Origin: Dehalococcoidia bacterium
Lineage (GTDB): Bacteria; Chloroflexota; Dehalococcoidia; Dehalococcoidales; W498
Length of the DNA: 10,585 nt
Direction: 5' to 3'
Assembly: GCA_030608125.1 (NCBI GenBank)
Contig: JAUWEU010000011.1
Coordinates: forward strand, 1 to 10,585
In this document: in pieces, positions 2,276 through 10,585 of the stretch
How positions within the stretch are numbered: position 1 is the stretch's first letter
Layout of the letters: each line of letters opens with the position of its first letter
Program-made: the position numbers and the translations under genes
Notes under the pieces: generated by a model
Databases searched by the model: none
What the model was told of the DNA's origin: nothing
The model's input: the letters and a program-made list of their open reading frames with translations, nothing else

Positions 2276-2761
2276 ATGATTCAATTGAACGATAAGCAAA
2301 TCGCAGAGTTTTATTATCGCAGCTACACTGCCGCGGATGGGCTATGGTTCATGAAGGTTGAAGAGAAGTATGGATTCGCTGCAGCTCTTGAGATTGATGA
2401 CGAGGTCTGGAAGGTGCTGCCCAAAATACAAGCCCGTATGCTTAAATCCATGGGGAACGTGGGGAATGGAATGGAAGCGCTGTTAGAATGTTTTACGACT
2501 AAGCTGACCTTGGATGGCTTTACTTTCAGGGTTGAAAGAACTGGAGATGACAGTGGTTTCAGAGTAATCATTGAGAGATGCCCTTGGCATGATTTGATGG
2601 TCAAGTCTGGAAGAGAACACCTTTCTGAGAAAGTGGGGACTCTTATTTGTAATACAGAATATTCGGCCTGGGCTTCCGAATTTGACGACAACATATGCTT
2701 TGAACTGCAACATCAAATTTGCAAAGGCTCTCAATTCTGTATATTACAGTTCAGTCGTTAG
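2276..2761 (+). CDS. DUF6125-like protein, Cys-rich, function unknown
   Basis: This 161-residue soluble protein has no signal peptide or membrane segment. The ATG is preceded by AGGAGG (2260-2265) at a 10-nt spacing. The pattern I recognise is that of the DUF6125 family: an N-terminal helix with FYYRSYTAADGLWF (residues 12-25) and EKYGFAAALEID, then IQARMLK, a CPW motif at 102-104 followed by KSGREHL, C125 followed by EYSAWASEF, and a C-terminal C149-x5-C155 in CKGSQFC. Conserved-looking Cys at 102, 125, 149 and 155 could bind a metal or take part in thiol chemistry. The family is, to my recollection, related to L-2-amino-thiazoline-4-carboxylate hydrolase-like proteins, but no reaction can be assigned here. 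It stands alone, with no evident operon partner. Confidence 0.7.
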   Translation: MIQLNDKQIAEFYYRSYTAADGLWFMKVEEKYGFAAALEIDDEVWKVLPKIQARMLKSMGNVGNGMEALLECFTTKLTLDGFTFRVERTGDDSGFRVIIERCPWHDLMVKSGREHLSEKVGTLICNTEYSAWASEFDDNICFELQHQICKGSQFCILQFSR

Positions 2762-3083: not shown

Positions 3084-3881
3084 ATGGCACAAATACAGCG
3101 AAATAGGAATCTGGACACAAAATTCCAGATATTAGTTCAGATAGCTGCGAATCAGCCCAACATACAGCAGAAAGATATTGCTCAAAAACTCGATGTCACC
3201 CCGCAAGCGGTTTCGGAATATATCAAGGAAATGGTGAAGGACGGCTCAGTTACCTCAGATGGGCGATCCAGATATAGAATAACCACTGAGGGCGTGAACC
3301 GGGTTTTGAAGGCGCTGAAAGAGCTACGAGCCTACCTCACCTTTGTGGAGAGGTCAATAACCAATATAACAGTCTGTACCGCGGTAGCAGACCATGACCT
3401 GTCTCAAGGTCAAGTAGTGGGGTTGAAGATGAAAGATGGCTTGCTATTTGCCACTGACGCTTTAGACAAAGCGGCAAAGGGGGTAGCAGTTTCCAATGCC
3501 AGAAAGGGCGAGGATGTAGGCATCTCAAGCATAGAGGGAATAATAGAGTTTGAGATGGGAAGGATAACTATTTTAAAGGTGCCCGGCATTCAAAGGGGCA
3601 GCTCTAGGAATGTTGACCTGGCCAGGTTGAAAAAGGAGCTTAGCCAGAAAGAGCTTGTTGGCACTATAGGCATTGAAGCTTTGATTGCACTACGGCGTGT
3701 AGGCATTGAGCCTTCCTATCTCTATGGTGTGACCGAGGCAGCTATTGAAGCGGCTCACTCTGGTTTATCATTTCTCATACTCTGTACTGATGATGACATC
3801 CCTGCCCTACTTAAACGACTAGAGGAACAGAATCTAAGTTACGAAATCTTAGATTTAAGCACAGGTAGCAATCTGGAATAA
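3084..3881 (+). CDS. Winged helix-turn-helix DNA-binding protein, probable transcriptional regulator
   Basis: The N-terminal ~85 residues form a MarR/ArsR-like winged helix. Residues 27-50 (IQQKDIAQKLDVTPQAVSEY and on) are a clear helix-turn-helix, and SDGRSRYRITTEG (58-70) fits the wing. The remaining ~180 residues are unlike common effector domains. They contain a beta-rich middle (about 95-170) and an alpha/beta end (about 190-258) with TIGIEALIALRRVGIEP and FLILCTDDDIPALLKRL, which could be a ligand-sensing fold. The arrangement recalls predicted regulators common in archaea and some anaerobic bacteria (DUF7839-type), from memory only. The ribosome binding site is weak (AAAGG, 3068-3072). 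It lies just upstream of the cobalamin operon in the same direction but about 400 bp away, and the operon has its own promoter, so a link to cobalamin control is only a possibility. Confidence 0.7.
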   Translation: MAQIQRNRNLDTKFQILVQIAANQPNIQQKDIAQKLDVTPQAVSEYIKEMVKDGSVTSDGRSRYRITTEGVNRVLKALKELRAYLTFVERSITNITVCTAVADHDLSQGQVVGLKMKDGLLFATDALDKAAKGVAVSNARKGEDVGISSIEGIIEFEMGRITILKVPGIQRGSSRNVDLARLKKELSQKELVGTIGIEALIALRRVGIEPSYLYGVTEAAIEAAHSGLSFLILCTDDDIPALLKRLEEQNLSYEILDLSTGSNLE

Positions 3882-3993: not shown

Positions 3994-4053
3994 CAAAAAA
4001 TTCTGTTTATAATCAGATTATCTTGCATTCGTACCTTTACAGTTATATGGATA

Positions 4054-4178
4054 CAGCAAGGTGCCCTCAAAGGGCTTAAACGGGGAAGCTCGGTGGGAAT
4101 CCGGCACTGTCCCGCAACTGTGATTTAGCCCTGATATCAGGTTGGTTAGGCTAATAAGTCAGGTCGCCCGCCTTGTAG
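4054..4178 (+). promoter_or_regulatory. Cobalamin (B12) riboswitch aptamer
   Basis: This leader RNA binds a cobalamin cofactor and lowers expression of the downstream genes when B12 is plentiful. The class hallmarks appear in order: GGTGCCCTCAAAGGGC (4060-4075), the conserved core GGTGGGAATCCGGCAC (4091-4106) and TGTCCCGCAACTGTGA (4108-4123), and a B12-box-like AAGTCAGGTCGCCCGCC (4156-4172) close to the usual consensus. The closing stem can form between CAAGG (4057-4061) and CCTTG (4171-4175). It sits between a consensus promoter and a cobalamin biosynthesis operon, the classical setting. The usual helix between the core and the B12 box is short, so the exact subclass is not assigned. Confidence 0.93.
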
Positions 4179-4187
4179 TGAGCTGAA

Positions 4188-4275
4188 TGCCTCCGAGGAG
4201 AGGATGTAGGCAGAAATATTCAGGTATTTCTGGCGAGTCCCTTGTCTTTTTGCGGAGGCAGGGGGATTTATTTTT
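4188..4275 (+). promoter_or_regulatory. Likely expression platform of the cobalamin riboswitch
   Basis: TGCCTCCG (4188-4195) pairs perfectly with CGGAGGCA (4253-4260), and the enclosed CAGAAATA (4211-4218) pairs perfectly with TATTTCTG (4225-4232). The outer stem is followed by GGGGG and the T-rich ATTTATTTTT (4266-4275), which could allow transcription termination. The ribosome binding site AGGAG of the next gene (4276-4280) comes immediately after, so translation control is also possible. Which mechanism operates cannot be decided from the sequence. Confidence 0.5.
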
Positions 4276-4286
4276 AGGAGAAAGAA

Positions 4287-5318
4287 ATGGCAGAAACAGG
4301 GGTAATAATATTAGCCCACGGTAGTCGCAATGAGAGTGAAGTCAGTGAAATTTTGAGGGAGGTCTCCCGCACGGTAAAGGCATGGCTTCCTCCAGAGATA
4401 AAGGTGGTGGGGGCAGCCATGCAATTCAACCACCCCGACTTAGAAGAGGCAATTGAGCTTCTGGTGAAGCAGGACGTAAAGCGGGTGGTGATAATGCCCT
4501 ACTTCCTTTTCCAAGGTATACACCCTACGAGGGATATTCCCAACCGTATCGGGGTCATCAAGCAGACCAATCCGGAGGTGGAGTTGGTTTTGGCAAACAC
4601 ACTGGGGGTAGATGAACATTTAACTAACCTTGTTGTTAAGCGCATACAGGAGGCAGCACCGGAACTTTCCCCGCACCACAGCTTTTCAGTGACGCATAAT
4701 GCTCCTCAGACCATCGAGGAACGCAGTATGGTGATAATAGAGGATTTGCTGCCGCCACTGGACGGCTCCGAGGAGGAACGCCAGGTAATAAAGCGTATCG
4801 TCCATGCCGCCGGCGACCCTCAGGTGGCTAGTCTCGTCCGGCTTCACCCCAATGCGGTTTCAGCCGGTATTGCCGCCATTCGCCAAGGAAAGCCGATATT
4901 CACCGATGTCAGGATGGTTGTGGAGGGTATCAATCACCATCTGGCTCGAAACTTTGGCTGTTCCATACATTGCGCTTTTGATGAGCCTGAGGTGATGAGG
5001 CAGGCACCAGAGAAGAATACTACCCGTAGTGCGGCTGCCGTCCGCAGTCTAGGCATGAGACTCCATGGTGCCATTGTTGCCATTGGCAATGCCCCTACCG
5101 CCCTGTTCACCCTGCTTGACTTGATTGGCAGCCGAGGTGTCCAACCGGCTCTGGTTGTGGGAACGCCCGTTGGCTTTGTGCAAGCTAAAGAGTCAAAGGC
5201 GGAGTTGATGAAGCAGGATATACCCTATATTACCATTGAGGGGACTCGGGGTGGAAGTGCCGCGGCGGTAGCTACAGTTAATGCCCTGCTAAACCTTGCC
5301 CGGAAGGTTCATAAATGA
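4287..5318 (+). CDS. cbiXC: CbiX-CbiC fusion: sirohydrochlorin cobaltochelatase plus cobalt-precorrin-8 methylmutase
   Basis: The protein joins two steps of the anaerobic cobalamin pathway. Residues 1 to about 128 are a short CbiX chelatase that inserts cobalt into sirohydrochlorin; His11 in ILAHGSR and His79 in FQGIHPTRD are the expected metal-binding and catalytic histidines. Residues about 140-343 are CbiC, which moves the C11 methyl to C12 to give cobyrinate; His173 in KRIVHAAGD matches the catalytic His of CobH/CbiC, and the terminal VVGTPVGF and GTRGGSAAA motifs are typical. It is soluble. The ATG follows AGGAG at 6 nt and is the first gene after the riboswitch. The gene ends in a 4-nt ATGA overlap with the next, so they are translationally coupled. 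The chelatase half could in principle accept nickel (CfbA-like), but the fusion to CbiC and the riboswitch argue for cobalt. Confidence 0.93.
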   Translation: MAETGVIILAHGSRNESEVSEILREVSRTVKAWLPPEIKVVGAAMQFNHPDLEEAIELLVKQDVKRVVIMPYFLFQGIHPTRDIPNRIGVIKQTNPEVELVLANTLGVDEHLTNLVVKRIQEAAPELSPHHSFSVTHNAPQTIEERSMVIIEDLLPPLDGSEEERQVIKRIVHAAGDPQVASLVRLHPNAVSAGIAAIRQGKPIFTDVRMVVEGINHHLARNFGCSIHCAFDEPEVMRQAPEKNTTRSAAAVRSLGMRLHGAIVAIGNAPTALFTLLDLIGSRGVQPALVVGTPVGFVQAKESKAELMKQDIPYITIEGTRGGSAAAVATVNALLNLARKVHK

Positions 5319-6439
5319 GTCAATTAGCACTGCCCAAAGAGCCGAGATTGAAGGAACTGGTGCTGTGGGTCACCACCGACTGTAATCTACGCTGCCGCTA
5401 CTGTTACGCCAGTGGTGGCGACGAGGTGGAATACATGGACTGGCGAGTAGCTAAGCGAGCCTTGGACATCATGATTGGTCAGTTTAGTCGTTTCAAGATT
5501 CAGTTCGCCGGTGGTGAGCCACTGCTTAACATGGACTTGATTGAGCAGGTGGTGCGCTACACGCAGGGTCTGGGCATTGGCTATCAGCTCCAAACCAACG
5601 CTACTCTCATTGATGACAAGATTGCCGCAAATCTTAAACGGATGGGAGTAGATGTAGGCGTGAGCCTCGATGGCTTACCAGAGGTAAATGACTCTTTGCG
5701 TCCTTTTGCCAATGGGTATGGCTCTACGCGAGCCACGATAGCCGGGCTAGAGAAGCTTCGGGTGGCTGGTATTGGCGTGGGGTTGACCTGTGTCCTATCC
5801 GCCGAGAATATTACTGGGTTACCCGGACTGGTCGAGCTTGCCAGCTACGTGGGAAATGTAGAGGGCATTGCCTTTGACCTGTTACGGCTGATAGGAAGGG
5901 CTAGTGAAGATAGCGTGAGGCAGGCAGACCCTACTTTGGCAGCCCGCTCGGTAAGTGCCGCTCTCAGGCGGGCGGATGAGCTGGCACTTATGGGCGGAAG
6001 AAGGGTAAGGTTTCGCGAGGTAGAGCGTATGCGCTATCTTCTCATCAACGGGATAAGACGCCGACACCGCTGCTATTTTGACACCGGGCAGTTGCTTATG
6101 GTGAAACCAAATGGTGATGCGTATCCCTGTGCTTCCCTAGCTGGTTTCCCCCGCCAGTTTTACCTAGGTAATGTTCTAGAGCAAGGTTTCACCGATGAAG
6201 TAGGTGTTAATTTGCAGAGGTGCCGGCAGCTTATCACCCCACCCCATTATTGCCTTACGTGTGGTAGACACTGGCTCTGCGGTGGTTCGTGTCCGGCTCA
6301 GACCTATGCCCAGCAATTGGCTGAGGAGATAAAGCCGACCGAGTGCTATATCAAAAGGGTATTCATTGATTATATCTCTGATGCCAGAAAGAAAGTGGTG
6401 AGCTATGCACCGGCGAATCAGGTTAGTTTATCCGTTTAG
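5315..6439 (+). CDS. Radical SAM/SPASM domain protein in cobalamin operon, probable peptide or protein maturase
   Basis: At residues 23-30 the CNLRCRYC motif (CxxxCxxC) binds the radical SAM 4Fe-4S cluster, and GGEP (66-69) is the SAM-binding motif. The C-terminus has a complete SPASM signature: C253-x13-G267-x4-C272, then C313-x2-C316-x5-C322-x3-C326, and C344. This would hold two more 4Fe-4S clusters. Such enzymes usually modify ribosomally made peptides or proteins (anaerobic sulfatase maturase, sactipeptide and PqqE-like enzymes). The closest kind I recall is the cobalt-linked peptide-modifying type called CbpB, but I cannot confirm that. The start overlaps the previous stop (ATGA) and has GGAAGG at 7 nt. 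It is embedded in the B12-controlled operon, so its job is probably tied to cobalt or corrin metabolism. No sulfatase or clear precursor peptide is visible nearby. Confidence 0.85.
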
Positions 6440-8453
6440 CACCATTGTTGGGCAGGAGAACATGAAGAAGGCACTTCTCCTTAATGCCATCAACCCCAAA
6501 ATTGGTGGGGTGCTTCTTCGGGGTGAAAAGGGGACAGCCAAGTCCATGGCAGTGCGGGCTCTGGCTCAACTCCTTCCCCAGATTGAGGTGGTATCTGATT
6601 GTCCCTTCCTTTGCGAACCTAAGTGTGCAGATGAGCTATGTGATACTTGTGCCGCCAGAGCAGCTAAGGGCGAGAAGCTTGGTGCTGCCAGGAGGCAGGT
6701 GCCTGTAGTGGAGATGCCAATAGGGGCTACCGAGGACAGGGTTGTGGGCACGCTTGACATTGAAAGGGCAATTAAGACCGGGGAGAAACACTTTGAGCCG
6801 GGACTTCTGGCTGCTGCCAATCGTGGCATCCTATACATTGATGAGGTGAACCTGCTGGATGACCATCTGGTGGATGTTTTACTTGATGCCGCCGCTATGG
6901 GGGTGAACTTCGTGGAGCGGGAGGGAATCTCCTTCAGTCACCCGGCACAATTCATTCTGGTGGGCACCATGAATCCCGAAGAGGGTGAGCTGCGTCCGCA
7001 ACTACTGGACCGTTTTGGGTTGGCAGTGGAGGGCAAGGGTATTCCAGACCAGGAGTCCAGGGCAGAGGTGGTGCGAAGACGGGTCGCCTTCGAGGCGAAC
7101 CCGGCAGCCTTTGTCACTACCGGGGAGGATGAGCAGGAGAAGCTGCGGCAGCAGGTTATGGAAGCCAAGCAGCTGCTGCCCGGGGTGCAACTCAGTGAGG
7201 AGATGCTGAAGCTCATCACCCAGATCTGCATTGACTTCGCAGTTGATGGTCAACGGGCTGATATTGTGATACATAAGACTGCCACTACCATTGCTGCCTA
7301 CTATGGGAGAATAGAGGTGAATGAGGAGGATGTCAAGGAGGCGGCTGAGCTGGCACTTCTGCACCGTCGTCGTCGCCAGCCCTTTGAGCAGCCGGAGCTA
7401 GACCAGCAGCAGCTAGAGGAGAGCGTTCAAAGATGGCATCAGAATCAGGAGAATCAACCCCAGGATAAACAAGAGAATGAGCAAGCCCCTCCGCCCAGTG
7501 ACCCACCTCCTCATAATGATACCGATGATTCTCCTGATAATAGGCAAGAGCCCGAAAGAGAGCAAGTCTTCGAAGCTGACCCGCCATACCGGGTAAGACC
7601 ATTGATTACTCCTGTGCTGGATCAGGAATTTAGGAGTGGAGCAGGACGACGGTCAAAGAGCAGAACCAACTCCAAGACGGGGCGCTATGTGGACAGTGTC
7701 ATTCCCCAGGGGAAAGTTACTGACCTGGCTTTTGATGCCACCCTGCGGGCAGCGGCTCCCTTCCAGGCGCAGCGAAGGAAGGAAGTACAGGGACAGAATG
7801 CCCTGCTCATTGAGAGCCACGACCTGCGAGAGAAGGTGCGGGAGAAAAAGGTGGGCAATCTCATTGTGTTTGTCCTTGATGCCTCAGGTTCCATGGCTGC
7901 TGAAGAGAGGATGGTAGCTACCAAGGGGGCAGTACTATCTCTGCTGCTGGATGCCTATCAGCGGCGAGACCGCGTGGGGATGGTGGTCTTCCGAGGGGAG
8001 AAGGCAAAGCTGGTGCTGCCCCCGACCAACAGTGTGGAACTGGCTCAAAAATACCTGACCGAGCTTCCCACCGGTGGGCGCACCCCTCTAGCCCATGGTT
8101 TAAAGCTGGGTCTGGATACCATCAAGGAGCACCTGTGGAGAGATAAGCATACCATCCCACTTCTGGTTCTGGTCTCCGATGGGCGGGCGAATGTCAGCCT
8201 AAATGGTGGCAACCCCGTGGAGGAGGCGAAAAGAATAGCTCAGGAGATAAAGGCAGCGAATATCAGGTCACTTGCCGTTGATACTGAGCAGCGCTTTGTT
8301 ACCTTCAGTCTAGTAGAGCAAATCTGCACCGAGCTGGGAGGAACCTATCTACGGCTGGAGGAGTTGAAATCTGCCCCTATAGCCTCTGCGGTAAGGGACA
8401 GCCTGGGCTATGCAAGTGAAAGGGGTGATAGACATGGTGAGGTAAAAAACTGA
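6405..8453 (+). CDS. Fused ChlI-ChlD-type AAA+/VWA chelatase subunit (putative cobaltochelatase subunit)
   Basis: Residues about 8-325 are a Mg-chelatase I-type AAA+ ATPase: Walker A GEKGTAKS (40-47), Walker B ILYIDE (142-147), sensor Asn190 in [12 protein letters not shown] and Arg203 in LLDRFGL. A polar, acidic, Pro/Gln-rich linker (about 330-395) leads to a VWA domain at about 485-670 with an intact MIDAS (DASGS at 492-496, Thr560, Asp592). The family powers metal insertion into tetrapyrroles together with a large CobN/ChlH-type subunit, which is not in this window. A cysteine cluster, C66, C70, C74, C79 and C82, is inserted after Walker A; this is seen in putative cobaltochelatase members and may bind metal. 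The ATG overlaps the previous gene by 35 nt; the ribosome binding site is weak, but the conserved VYPF...IVGQE start at residue 8 supports it. Co-occurrence with CbiX suggests a helper role or a different metal. Confidence 0.88.
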
Positions 8454-8570
8454 GGGCGATTGCCAGCACTCTGTATGATGGAAACTGGTAGAACCATGCA
8501 ACAAGGGCTGAAGTCAAGCGCCCCCAGCCTTATTTCGTTATAGCAAATTTGAGACAAAGGAGAAAGGTTG

Positions 8571-8773
8571 ATGAAGAAGATAATTCTGGTTGGGATGATG
8601 AGACTGTAATACGCTCTACCTTGAAGGATATAGTAAAGGAAGTACGCGCACTGGGTATAAAGAAACAGGCATTGATATTGGTAGGTAGCGTTTTAGACTC
8701 TGAGAGAAAAGGCTACCACTCCGAACTTTACCACAAGAATTTCAGCCATGGATATCGTCAAAGGAAGCCATGA
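8571..8773 (+). pseudogene. cbiF: Remnant of cobalt-precorrin-4 C11-methyltransferase (cbiF), internal deletion
   Basis: A good ribosome binding site, AAAGGAG (8556-8562), sits 8 nt before ATG 8571, which reads MKKIILVG, just like the start of a tetrapyrrole methylase, but then shifts into MMRL and a stop at 8607. In another frame, from about 8591, the reading matches the end of CbiF/CobM: WDDETVIRSTLKDI, ALGIKKQALILVG and SELYHKNFSHGYR. A normal CbiF has about 250 residues; here only the first 8 and the last ~60 codons seem to survive, out of frame with each other. The C-terminal frame is open from 8492 and could start at TTG 8549, but lacks the SAM-binding and active-site parts. Its stop overlaps the ATG of the next gene. 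The 95 bp between the preceding gene and TTG 8549 hold nothing I recognise. A cbiF elsewhere, or an assembly error, would be needed for the pathway to work. Confidence 0.7.
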
Positions 8774-10585
8774 GCCACAAGATAGCCATCGTTGCTATAA
8801 CCAAGAACGGCGTTGAGCTTGGGCAACGGCTAACTCAGCTCTTCCCGGGAAGCCATTTATACATCCCGGCTAAATTTGCTTCCGAGCCGAAAGCAGGAGA
8901 GTATTCTTTTCAGGAGCCAGTGAAAGAGGTGGTGAGGAAGGTATTTAGTGAGTATGATAATCTGGCGCTCATCATGGCTGTGGGTGTTGCCGGTCGTCTA
9001 TTAGTTCCAGAGCTCAAGGGTAAGGACAAGGACCCTGGAGTGGTAGTGCTCGATGAGAAGGGTAAATTTGCAGTAAGCCTTCTCTCAGGACACAAGGGGG
9101 GTGCTAACCAGTTGGCAAGCAAAATTGCCTCTGTTATCGGTGCCCAGCCAGTTATCACCACTGCCTCAGAGGTAAGCGGGACCATTGCTGTCGATCTTCT
9201 GGGGCGAGAGTTCGGGTGGGAACTTGAGAGTGAAGCCAATGTCACTAAGGTGAGTGCCGCCATAGTCAACGGCGAGAAGGTGGGGCTCTATCAAGATGCC
9301 GGTGAGAGAAATTGGTGGAGGGGAAGCCTCCCTGAGAATATTCGTAAATTTTCCAGCCTTGAGGACTTGGAGAGGTTCGCTTGCCTTGCAGGGCTGGTCA
9401 TCACTGACCAGCTTTTGGGACAGGAACATCAAGCGCTACTTGATAGAGCGGTGATATACTGCCCTAAGAGCCTGGTGGTTGGCATCGGTTGCAACCGGGG
9501 AGCAATCTGCTCCAAAATAGAGGAAGCTATCGCTCAAGTTCTTGTAGAGCATAGGCTTTCTATCAAGAGTATAAGGAATATAGTCACTATTGACCTAAAG
9601 AGGGATGAGACGGGTCTTTTGGAATTTGCCCGAAAGCGCGAGCTGCCGGTAGAATTTTTTACCGGAGAAGCTCTGAGCCGGGTGAAGTTTCCATCCGCCC
9701 CCTCGGCTACGACATTCAAGTGGGTGGGAACCCCGGCGGTATGCGAGCCAGCGGCATTGATGAGCAGCAAGAGCCACCATCTGGTAGTGACTAAGACGAA
9801 ATTGAATGATGTTACCATCGCTGTAGCCCGGGTGTCGTTCAACGGCAGTGAAAAACGGGAAGACGGCAAGCTTTTCTTAATAGGGGTTGGACCCGGTGCT
9901 CCGGAACAGATGACTTTCAAGGCAAGGGAAGCTCTTACCTGGAGCAATGTGGTTGTGGGCTACAAGACCTATGTTAAGTTAATCGAGCAATTTCTATCTC
10001 AAAAGGAGGTCATTGCTGGTGGTATGGGAGGAGAGGTTGAAAGGATGAAAAGGGCAGTTAGTTTGGCAGAGGAAGGCAAAACAGTGGCTGTGGTTTGCGG
10101 TGGAGACGCCGGCATCTATGGCATGACTGGGCTTGTGGGCGAGATAATGCAGCAACAGGGATACCCTACCAAGCTCGAAATAGAGGTAATACCTGGTGTG
10201 CCATCTGTCTGCGCCACTGCTGCCCTGCTCGGTGCTCCTGTGATGCACGACTTCGCCTCAATCAGCCTCAGCGACCGGCTAACACCTTGGCGAGTTATTG
10301 CTCAGCGACTCCGCATGGCAGCTAAAGGGGACTTCGTTATCGCTCTCCATAATCCCAAAAGTAGGGAACGGCGATGCCAGATTGCTGAGGCGAGGAAGAT
10401 TCTTCTGCGATACCGTAGCCGCTCTACCCCGGTTGGCATTGTTGATAATGCCTATCGCCAGGGTCAAAAGGTAACCATAACCGACCTAGAACACATGCTG
10501 GATTTTGACATTGGCATGTCCACCACTCTCATCGTGGGAAACTCGACCACTTTCACCTTTGACAGGTGGATGGTGACTCCCCGTG
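8770..10585 (+). CDS. cbiGH: CbiG-CbiH fusion: cobalt-precorrin-5A hydrolase plus cobalt-factor III (precorrin-3B) C17-methyltransferase (partial)
   Basis: The frame is open from ATG 8770 to the right edge (605 codons, no stop). Residues 1 to about 360 are CbiG, which opens the lactone of cobalt-precorrin-5A and releases acetaldehyde. Its N-terminal domain has IMAVGVAGRLLVPEL and SLLSGHKGGAN (103-113); its C-terminal domain starts at VVGIGCNRG (about 235) and ends with APSATTFKWVGTPAVCEPAA. From residue 366, GKLFLIGVGPG begins CbiH, the SAM-dependent C17 methylase that also contracts the ring. It shows GGDAGIYGM (444-452), IPGVPS (474-479), HDFASISLSDRLTPW (493-507) and a near-complete end GMSTTLIVGNS...DRWMVTPR. 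Only a few residues are probably missing. The ATG overlaps the cbiF remnant's TGA, with AGGA 4 nt upstream. Consecutive pathway enzymes fused in this way fit substrate channelling, though that is inference. Confidence 0.93.
   Translation, partial: MSHKIAIVAITKNGVELGQRLTQLFPGSHLYIPAKFASEPKAGEYSFQEPVKEVVRKVFSEYDNLALIMAVGVAGRLLVPELKGKDKDPGVVVLDEKGKFAVSLLSGHKGGANQLASKIASVIGAQPVITTASEVSGTIAVDLLGREFGWELESEANVTKVSAAIVNGEKVGLYQDAGERNWWRGSLPENIRKFSSLEDLERFACLAGLVITDQLLGQEHQALLDRAVIYCPKSLVVGIGCNRGAICSKIEEAIAQVLVEHRLSIKSIRNIVTIDLKRDETGLLEFARKRELPVEFFTGEALSRVKFPSAPSATTFKWVGTPAVCEPAALMSSKSHHLVVTKTKLNDVTIAVARVSFNGSEKREDGKLFLIGVGPGAPEQMTFKAREALTWSNVVVGYKTYVKLIEQFLSQKEVIAGGMGGEVERMKRAVSLAEEGKTVAVVCGGDAGIYGMTGLVGEIMQQQGYPTKLEIEVIPGVPSVCATAALLGAPVMHDFASISLSDRLTPWRVIAQRLRMAAKGDFVIALHNPKSRERRCQIAEARKILLRYRSRSTPVGIVDNAYRQGQKVTITDLEHMLDFDIGMSTTLIVGNSTTFTFDRWMVTPR

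Follow-up and report, generated by a model that had tools for sequence, protein, structure and literature searches.

A btuF::cbiF joint in a Dehalococcoidia-like bacterium, probably left by an ancestral deletion in a cobalamin gene cluster

Results

A short open reading frame is a btuF::cbiF joint

The open reading frame at 8549-8773 of the window (the whole 10,585-nucleotide stretch of DNA analysed here) is a joint of two genes, most likely a deletion scar and not a gene, and carries no enzyme: the tail of cbiF is united in it with the start of a gene for a btuF-like substrate-binding protein, preceded by the leader of that gene, and the same joint recurs in a second organism. We consider it probable, at roughly three in four, that an ancestral deletion fused the btuF-like start, which followed a chelatase gene, to the cbiF tail, which preceded cbiGH. 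These odds overlap with those of a relocation or duplication of the operon, since a deletion in one of two cluster copies would satisfy both. A single-gene pseudogene call, made by the first-pass annotation, is corrected here to a cluster-scale event.

The frame encodes 74 residues and is open from a TTG start. As that annotation proposed, its tail is the CbiF C-terminus: residues 13-70 of 74 align with positions 191-247 of the 247-position CbiF/CobM model TIGR01465 (E 6.4e-15, 55.1 bits), and solved precorrin-4 C11-methyltransferases match it near their own C-termini (4e16, E 1.3e-7; 1cbf, E 3.8e-6). About three quarters of cbiF is indeed missing, the first ~195 residues being absent together with the GAGPGDPEL start. 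The score does not reach the full-length cutoff of the model (259.65 bits), against 356.4 and 340.9 bits for the CbiFs of comparison loci L040 and L041. No PF00590 tetrapyrrole-methylase domain was found in 8549-8770, where 0 Pfam families matched at E up to 1. Inspection of the sequence revealed neither an in-frame ATG nor a ribosome binding site (RBS) before TTG 8549, and with no RBS seen there the 74-residue product would probably not be made.

The flanking frames of cbiXC, the chelatase gene and cbiGH are open, as previously noted (Table 1). The stop codon of the remnant overlaps the cbiG start in an ATGA at 8770-8773, likewise in L040 (minus strand; cbiF end 9591, cbiGH start 9594). Because a Shine-Dalgarno-like AAAGGAAG is kept within the remnant at 8760-8767, just 5' of the cbiG start, cbiGH is probably still translatable.

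Table 1 Features of the window that bear on the joint
Feature	Coordinates	Strand	Basis
Cobalamin riboswitch upstream of cluster	4042..4189	+	Rfam RF00174, 59.7 bits, gathering 31.5
cbiXC fusion: CbiX + precorrin-8X methylmutase CbiC	4287..5318	+	Pfam CbiC E 5.7e-73, CbiX E 4.5e-22
Radical SAM/SPASM protein, same place in L001	5315..6439	+	Pfam Radical_SAM E 2.2e-20; 74% to L001 gene
Fused chelatase ATPase subunits I/D, putative cobaltochelatase subunit	6405..8453	+	TIGR02442 846.6 bits, cutoff 779.45
Leader, RBS and first ~6 codons of btuF-like substrate-binding protein gene	8493..8588	+	75/95 identical to L001 12118-12207, ahead of Peripla_BP_2 gene; alignment ends 8587
12-codon mini-ORF MKKIILVGMMRL, left by fusion	8571..8609	+	Translation
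Joint, possible 4-base shared GTTG	8589..8592	+	GTTG at L002/L003 btuF start and in L040 cbiF
cbiF 3' remnant, last ~58 codons + stop	8589..8773	+	TIGR01465 E 6.4e-15, model 191-247/247; alignment with CbiFs
cbiGH fusion, open frame, runs off window end	8770..10585	+	Pfam CbiG_N/mid/C + TP_methylase; TIGR01466 E 3.1e-89

A btuF-like gene contributed the 5' part

An RBS and a methylase-like MKKIILVG start had been described ahead of the cbiF tail. Both are present, as an RBS-like AAAGGAGAAAGG at 8556-8567 and ATGAAGAAGATAATTCTG (MKKIIL...) at 8571-8588, in another frame than the 74-residue ORF; the start, however, is not methylase-like and corresponds to the btuF-like leader and start of locus L001. 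The L001 gene behind the matched leader contains PF01497 (E 2.8e-28), and the leader of a second L001 btuF gives a shorter match (52/67) with the same end at 8587. In the window this btuF frame stops after 12 codons, and the PF01497 periplasmic binding domain is absent. The leader and start stand in place 3' of the chelatase gene, as in L001; a substrate-binding protein gene comes next in the closest four chelatase loci (L001-L004), and a BtuF-like gene lies 3' of the chelatase gene in 13 of the 28 chelatase loci fetched, these four included. BtuF, BtuC and BtuD labels denote best NCBIfam matches below their cutoffs, 'BtuF' resting also on BtuC/BtuD-like neighbours; both L001 substrate-binding protein genes carry Peripla_BP_2. 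These two L001 genes (leaders at 12118-12207 and 13261-13320) are arranged in tandem; nearly the same in leader and signal-peptide start, they are likely to offer a substrate for recombination.

The two-sided match switches at 8587/8589, where the btuF leader (L001) ends and cbiF (L040) begins, and the joint is therefore btuF::cbiF. Window positions 8589-8860 are identical to the L040 cbiF tail and cbiG start at 197/277 positions. When 8440-8860 was searched against 393 genomes of the class, drawn from a larger group, matches were found in 3 genomes, none across the joint: both matches in genome G001 end at 8587, the match in G002 begins at 8589, and that in G366 lies in cbiG (8782-8855). The parts had been placed together around 8588-8594 at a TTGGG-like sequence; a joint at ~8588-8592 is upheld, TTGGG is unconfirmed, and GTTG (8589-8592) would fit relatives of both parents.

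A deletion inside cbiF itself, as first proposed, would account for a cbiF tail beside an RBS and a start. We reject it as scarcely credible: 8493-8587 matches the btuF leader and start, and all full-length CbiFs aligned (11/11) start differently, with MA(V/I/A)QVYFIGAGPGDPEL, unlike MKKIIL. Of the proposed deletion through brief homology, a deletion-type joint via few shared bases is supported, but it is not confined to cbiF; the 5' parent being btuF-like, at least two genes and probably ~20 kb are involved.

The same joint occurs in a second organism

Among 5.8 billion proteins searched, one of 2 candidates, P0001, proved to be the sole relative of the 74-residue ORF found. Encoded on a 17,520-base JGI metagenome contig, it is likewise 74 residues long, is 88% identical and crosses the joint at the same place, with no difference over residues 1-28 beyond the notation of the TTG start and with 9 among the last 46. 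A scan of viral contigs in which CbiGH served as query gave no relative. One joint in two diverged organisms favours shared descent or spread, and the earlier suggestion of a strain-specific loss is therefore unlikely.

The same finding bears on an assembly chimera, in which two operon ends would have been wrongly joined. A shared stretch of ~4 bases is too short for collapse by a k-mer assembler, at most ~4 bases are shared at the joint, and the joint recurs on a different JGI contig with 9/74 residues changed; we regard both this explanation and the assembly collapse raised in the first-pass annotation as very unlikely.

Recurrence also invites the reading that the ORF encodes a functional small protein, a C-terminal fragment of CbiF, with its frame open in two organisms. 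Of the 9 positions at which the tails of the window and P0001 differ, 8 have both residues represented in a set of 120 intact CbiFs, where a random change would be represented ~48% of the time (binomial p 0.014); however, this test was devised after the data were seen, and its 120 sequences, the best of 7998 CbiF matches, are related. In the P0001 tail, G33 is unseen among these 120 and E38 is seen once. The short ORF thus recurs once among relatives and purifying selection on it is weakly suggested, but the TTG at 8549 lacks a visible RBS, an in-frame ATG and a Pfam domain are missing, and one relative was found, which makes a functional product improbable. The 74-residue public protein entry P0001 is probably itself a deletion joint.

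Gene order in relatives suggests a loss of about 20 kb

In G001, family scans confirmed the cbi, ABC and hemL labels of a long cluster. Its contig C128 carries, on one strand, cbiXC-rSAM-chelatase-btuF-btuF-btuC-btuD-cobN-ABC ATPase-ABC permease-sirC/hemA-hemC-cobA/hemD-hemB-hemL-cbiD and ends within cbiD (residues 4-103); contig C166 starts within cbiD (residues 110-360) and continues on the same strand with cbiET-cbiL-cbiF-cbiGH. The contig ends do not overlap, but G001 has no third piece of cbiD, and the contigs are therefore very probably neighbours. Both flanks of the scar would thus be colinear on one strand in G001, across a contig break within cbiD. Coordinate arithmetic would then put ~16.6 kb of C128 and 3.3 kb of C166 between the btuF and cbiF breakpoints. 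As had been noted, cbiL, cbiE/T and cbiD are not seen in the window in the interval that separates cbiGH from the chelatase gene; the operon is nevertheless not otherwise intact, as the btu genes, cobN and more stand between them in G001.

Ahead of cbiGH, cbiF is the next cbi gene in 11/11 loci examined (within 200 bases in 10, with a 1.3-kb gap in one). The 393-genome class search matched CbiGH in 24 genomes, and these loci represent 11 of them; the family (8 genomes) and order (18 genomes) of G002 were also searched with CbiGH. Elsewhere the order varies. In G002, nearer to the window than G001 by CbiGH (72 vs 60%), cbiMQO precede cbiD (L040), as in L049, L050, L051, L053 and L056, and the size of the loss in the window lineage is therefore an estimate. 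Chelatase genes of G002 lie on other contigs than the L040 cbi genes. Against a deletion, this order means that the ancestral distance may differ and that the event may be a relocation.

A relocation or operon duplication, by which the missing genes, an intact cbiF among them, would reside elsewhere in the genome and B12 synthesis would be intact, is a serious possibility that we place somewhat below even odds. It agrees with the open frames of cbiXC, the chelatase gene and cbiGH, with a cbiGH free of excess odd residues, and with the two different chelatase-btuF-btuC contigs (L002, L003) of G002; in addition, the loss of hemA/B/C/D/L implied by the G001 arrangement would be drastic. Yet only one full-length CbiF-like gene was found in each of G001 and G002, their other matches, 29-40% identical, being other methylases of the family.

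Some further features of these loci were observed. L002 and L003 belong to one genome record; in L003 the btuF match falls in two reading frames that part near 2390, next to a G run. L004 comes from a record titled Neomarinimicrobiota. Its chelatase shares 72-75% identity with the window and L001 chelatases and belongs to a chelatase-btuF-btuC-btuD-cobN cluster; a strong cobalamin riboswitch lies at 189-378.

The tail and cbiGH show no visible decay

A recent loss had been considered, and here the evidence is divided: the shared joint points to an old event, while the undecayed tail and cbiGH point to one that is recent or to sequences still constrained. No decay was seen in counts of odd residues. 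At otherwise invariant columns of a 16-row tail set, the window tail has 1 and P0001 none, compared with 0-2 in the 14 intact rows, which were taken from the 120 CbiFs; across 600 of 633 CbiGH columns (rows P0019 and P0021-P0121 left out), the window has 5 singletons, P0002-P0018 have 0-11 and the more distant P0020 has 26. Had both organisms inherited the joint from one ancestor, the tail should have been free to drift, and it has not drifted. The shared but undecayed 61-residue remnant (window 8589-8770 and P0001), in organisms 15% apart there, is at odds with an old, useless scar; explanations that would each suffice are a recent spread through recombination, conversion by an intact gene copy, and chance, given how short the tail is.

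Tail comparisons were made with the best 120 of 7998 CbiF matches. Among these, the window is nearest to the intact P0144 (55/61) and P0001 to the intact P0138 (54/61), the two tails agreeing with each other at 52/61. In a tree of 20 rows and 64 columns (18 of the 120 CbiFs, the window and P0001), a sister relationship of window and P0001 is neither supported nor rejected (p-AU 0.352); the free tree places the window with P0144 (support 71/93, not starred).

In the underlying protein searches, the 7995 CbiGH and 7999 CbiF candidates with most shared words were scored and the best 120 of each listed. Among the matches listed, the CbiGHs of the nearest kin are 84-92% identical to that of the window (P0002, 92%; P0003, 91%), and 8 of the 17 nearest CbiGH clusters (P0002-P0018) pair with a full-length CbiF cluster by equal longest contig. 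These eight pairs probably lie on the same contig, which would place intact CbiFs close by; for P0002 and P0003, the two nearest, no such pairing was seen among the CbiFs listed.

The cluster around the joint

Corrin synthesis at the window locus is without CbiF, CbiL, CbiD, CbiE/T and the CobN subunit. We rejected a regulatory element in the interval from the chelatase gene to the scar: folding of 8454-8570 is unremarkable (z -1.16, 29/200 shuffles as good), 8400-8800 contains a single promoter-like site, where 0.8 would be expected, and no terminator-like one, where 0.2 would be, and the riboswitch is the sole match in an Rfam scan of the window at gathering threshold.

Three further genes of the window were noted. 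A tyrosine phenol-lyase/tryptophanase-type gene (417-1877; TIGR02618, 766 bits, above cutoff) lies on the minus strand, opposite to the B12 cluster, and a DUF6125/ATC_hydrolase-like protein (Pfam E 8e-12 and 1.9e-9) is encoded at 2276-2761 (+). A winged-helix regulator with DUF7839 at 3084-3881 (+) is a candidate cluster regulator; a relative adjoins cbiXC in L049, and in the Bathyarchaeota loci L007, L008, L009 and L015 one lies close to chelatase or cbiM genes.

Discussion

In the favoured scenario of an ancestral deletion, an ancestor of this Dehalococcoidia-like bacterium would have undergone a deletion through at most ~4 shared bases, joining the first ~6 btuF-like codons to the last ~58 codons of cbiF. 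Were that ancestor arranged as G001, one deletion of ~20 kb would have sufficed, removing two btuF-like genes, btuC, btuD, cobN, two ABC genes, sirC/hemA, hemC, cobA/hemD, hemB, hemL, cbiD, cbiET, cbiL and three quarters of cbiF. It would have left cbiGH downstream of the cbiXC-rSAM-chelatase run with a cobalamin riboswitch ahead, and cbiGH, now behind the chelatase gene, would probably stay expressed.

A further reading is that the joint has been kept, or has spread, among related Dehalococcoidia-like bacteria. Lacking cobN and cbiF at the site, the shortened cluster (riboswitch-cbiXC-radical SAM-chelatase I/D-cbiGH) might be useful as such, for example in acting on imported late corrinoid precursors; or recombination that broke within the tail might have carried the allele from one lineage to another. 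The different nearest intact tails of the window and P0001 bear on the recombination version; we hold either to be unlikely.

Should the missing genes truly be lost, the lineage would rely on corrinoids taken up from outside, and the shared joint would give a date for the change. Should they survive elsewhere, the joint would record a rearrangement of the operon.

A literature search, judged by title or abstract start, yielded no paper describing a btuF::cbiF deletion. The remnant resembles CbiF/CobM, precorrin-4 C11-methyltransferase, in its last ~58 residues, its place before cbiGH and the ATGA overlap with cbiG seen in L040, but differs in being no enzyme, the first ~195 residues having gone. 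With the chelatase I/D-BtuF-BtuC-BtuD-CobN cluster of Dehalococcoidia and Bathyarchaeota records (L001, L005, L006 and others) the window shares the chelatase gene and btuF leader, whereas everything from btuF codon ~7 through cobN is missing. A precedent is provided by Dehalobacter restrictus PER-K23, in which cbiH is truncated by a 101-bp deletion, the gene being intact in the five other Dehalobacter strains tabulated; its authors link this deletion to corrinoid auxotrophy (PMC4285132). As described there, a corrin-ring gene was lost by deletion with the corrinoid gene set otherwise retained, and the event in the window would be of this same, ordinary kind on a larger scale: 101 bp inside one gene in PER-K23, as against a fusion of two genes, probably over ~20 kb, common to two related organisms.
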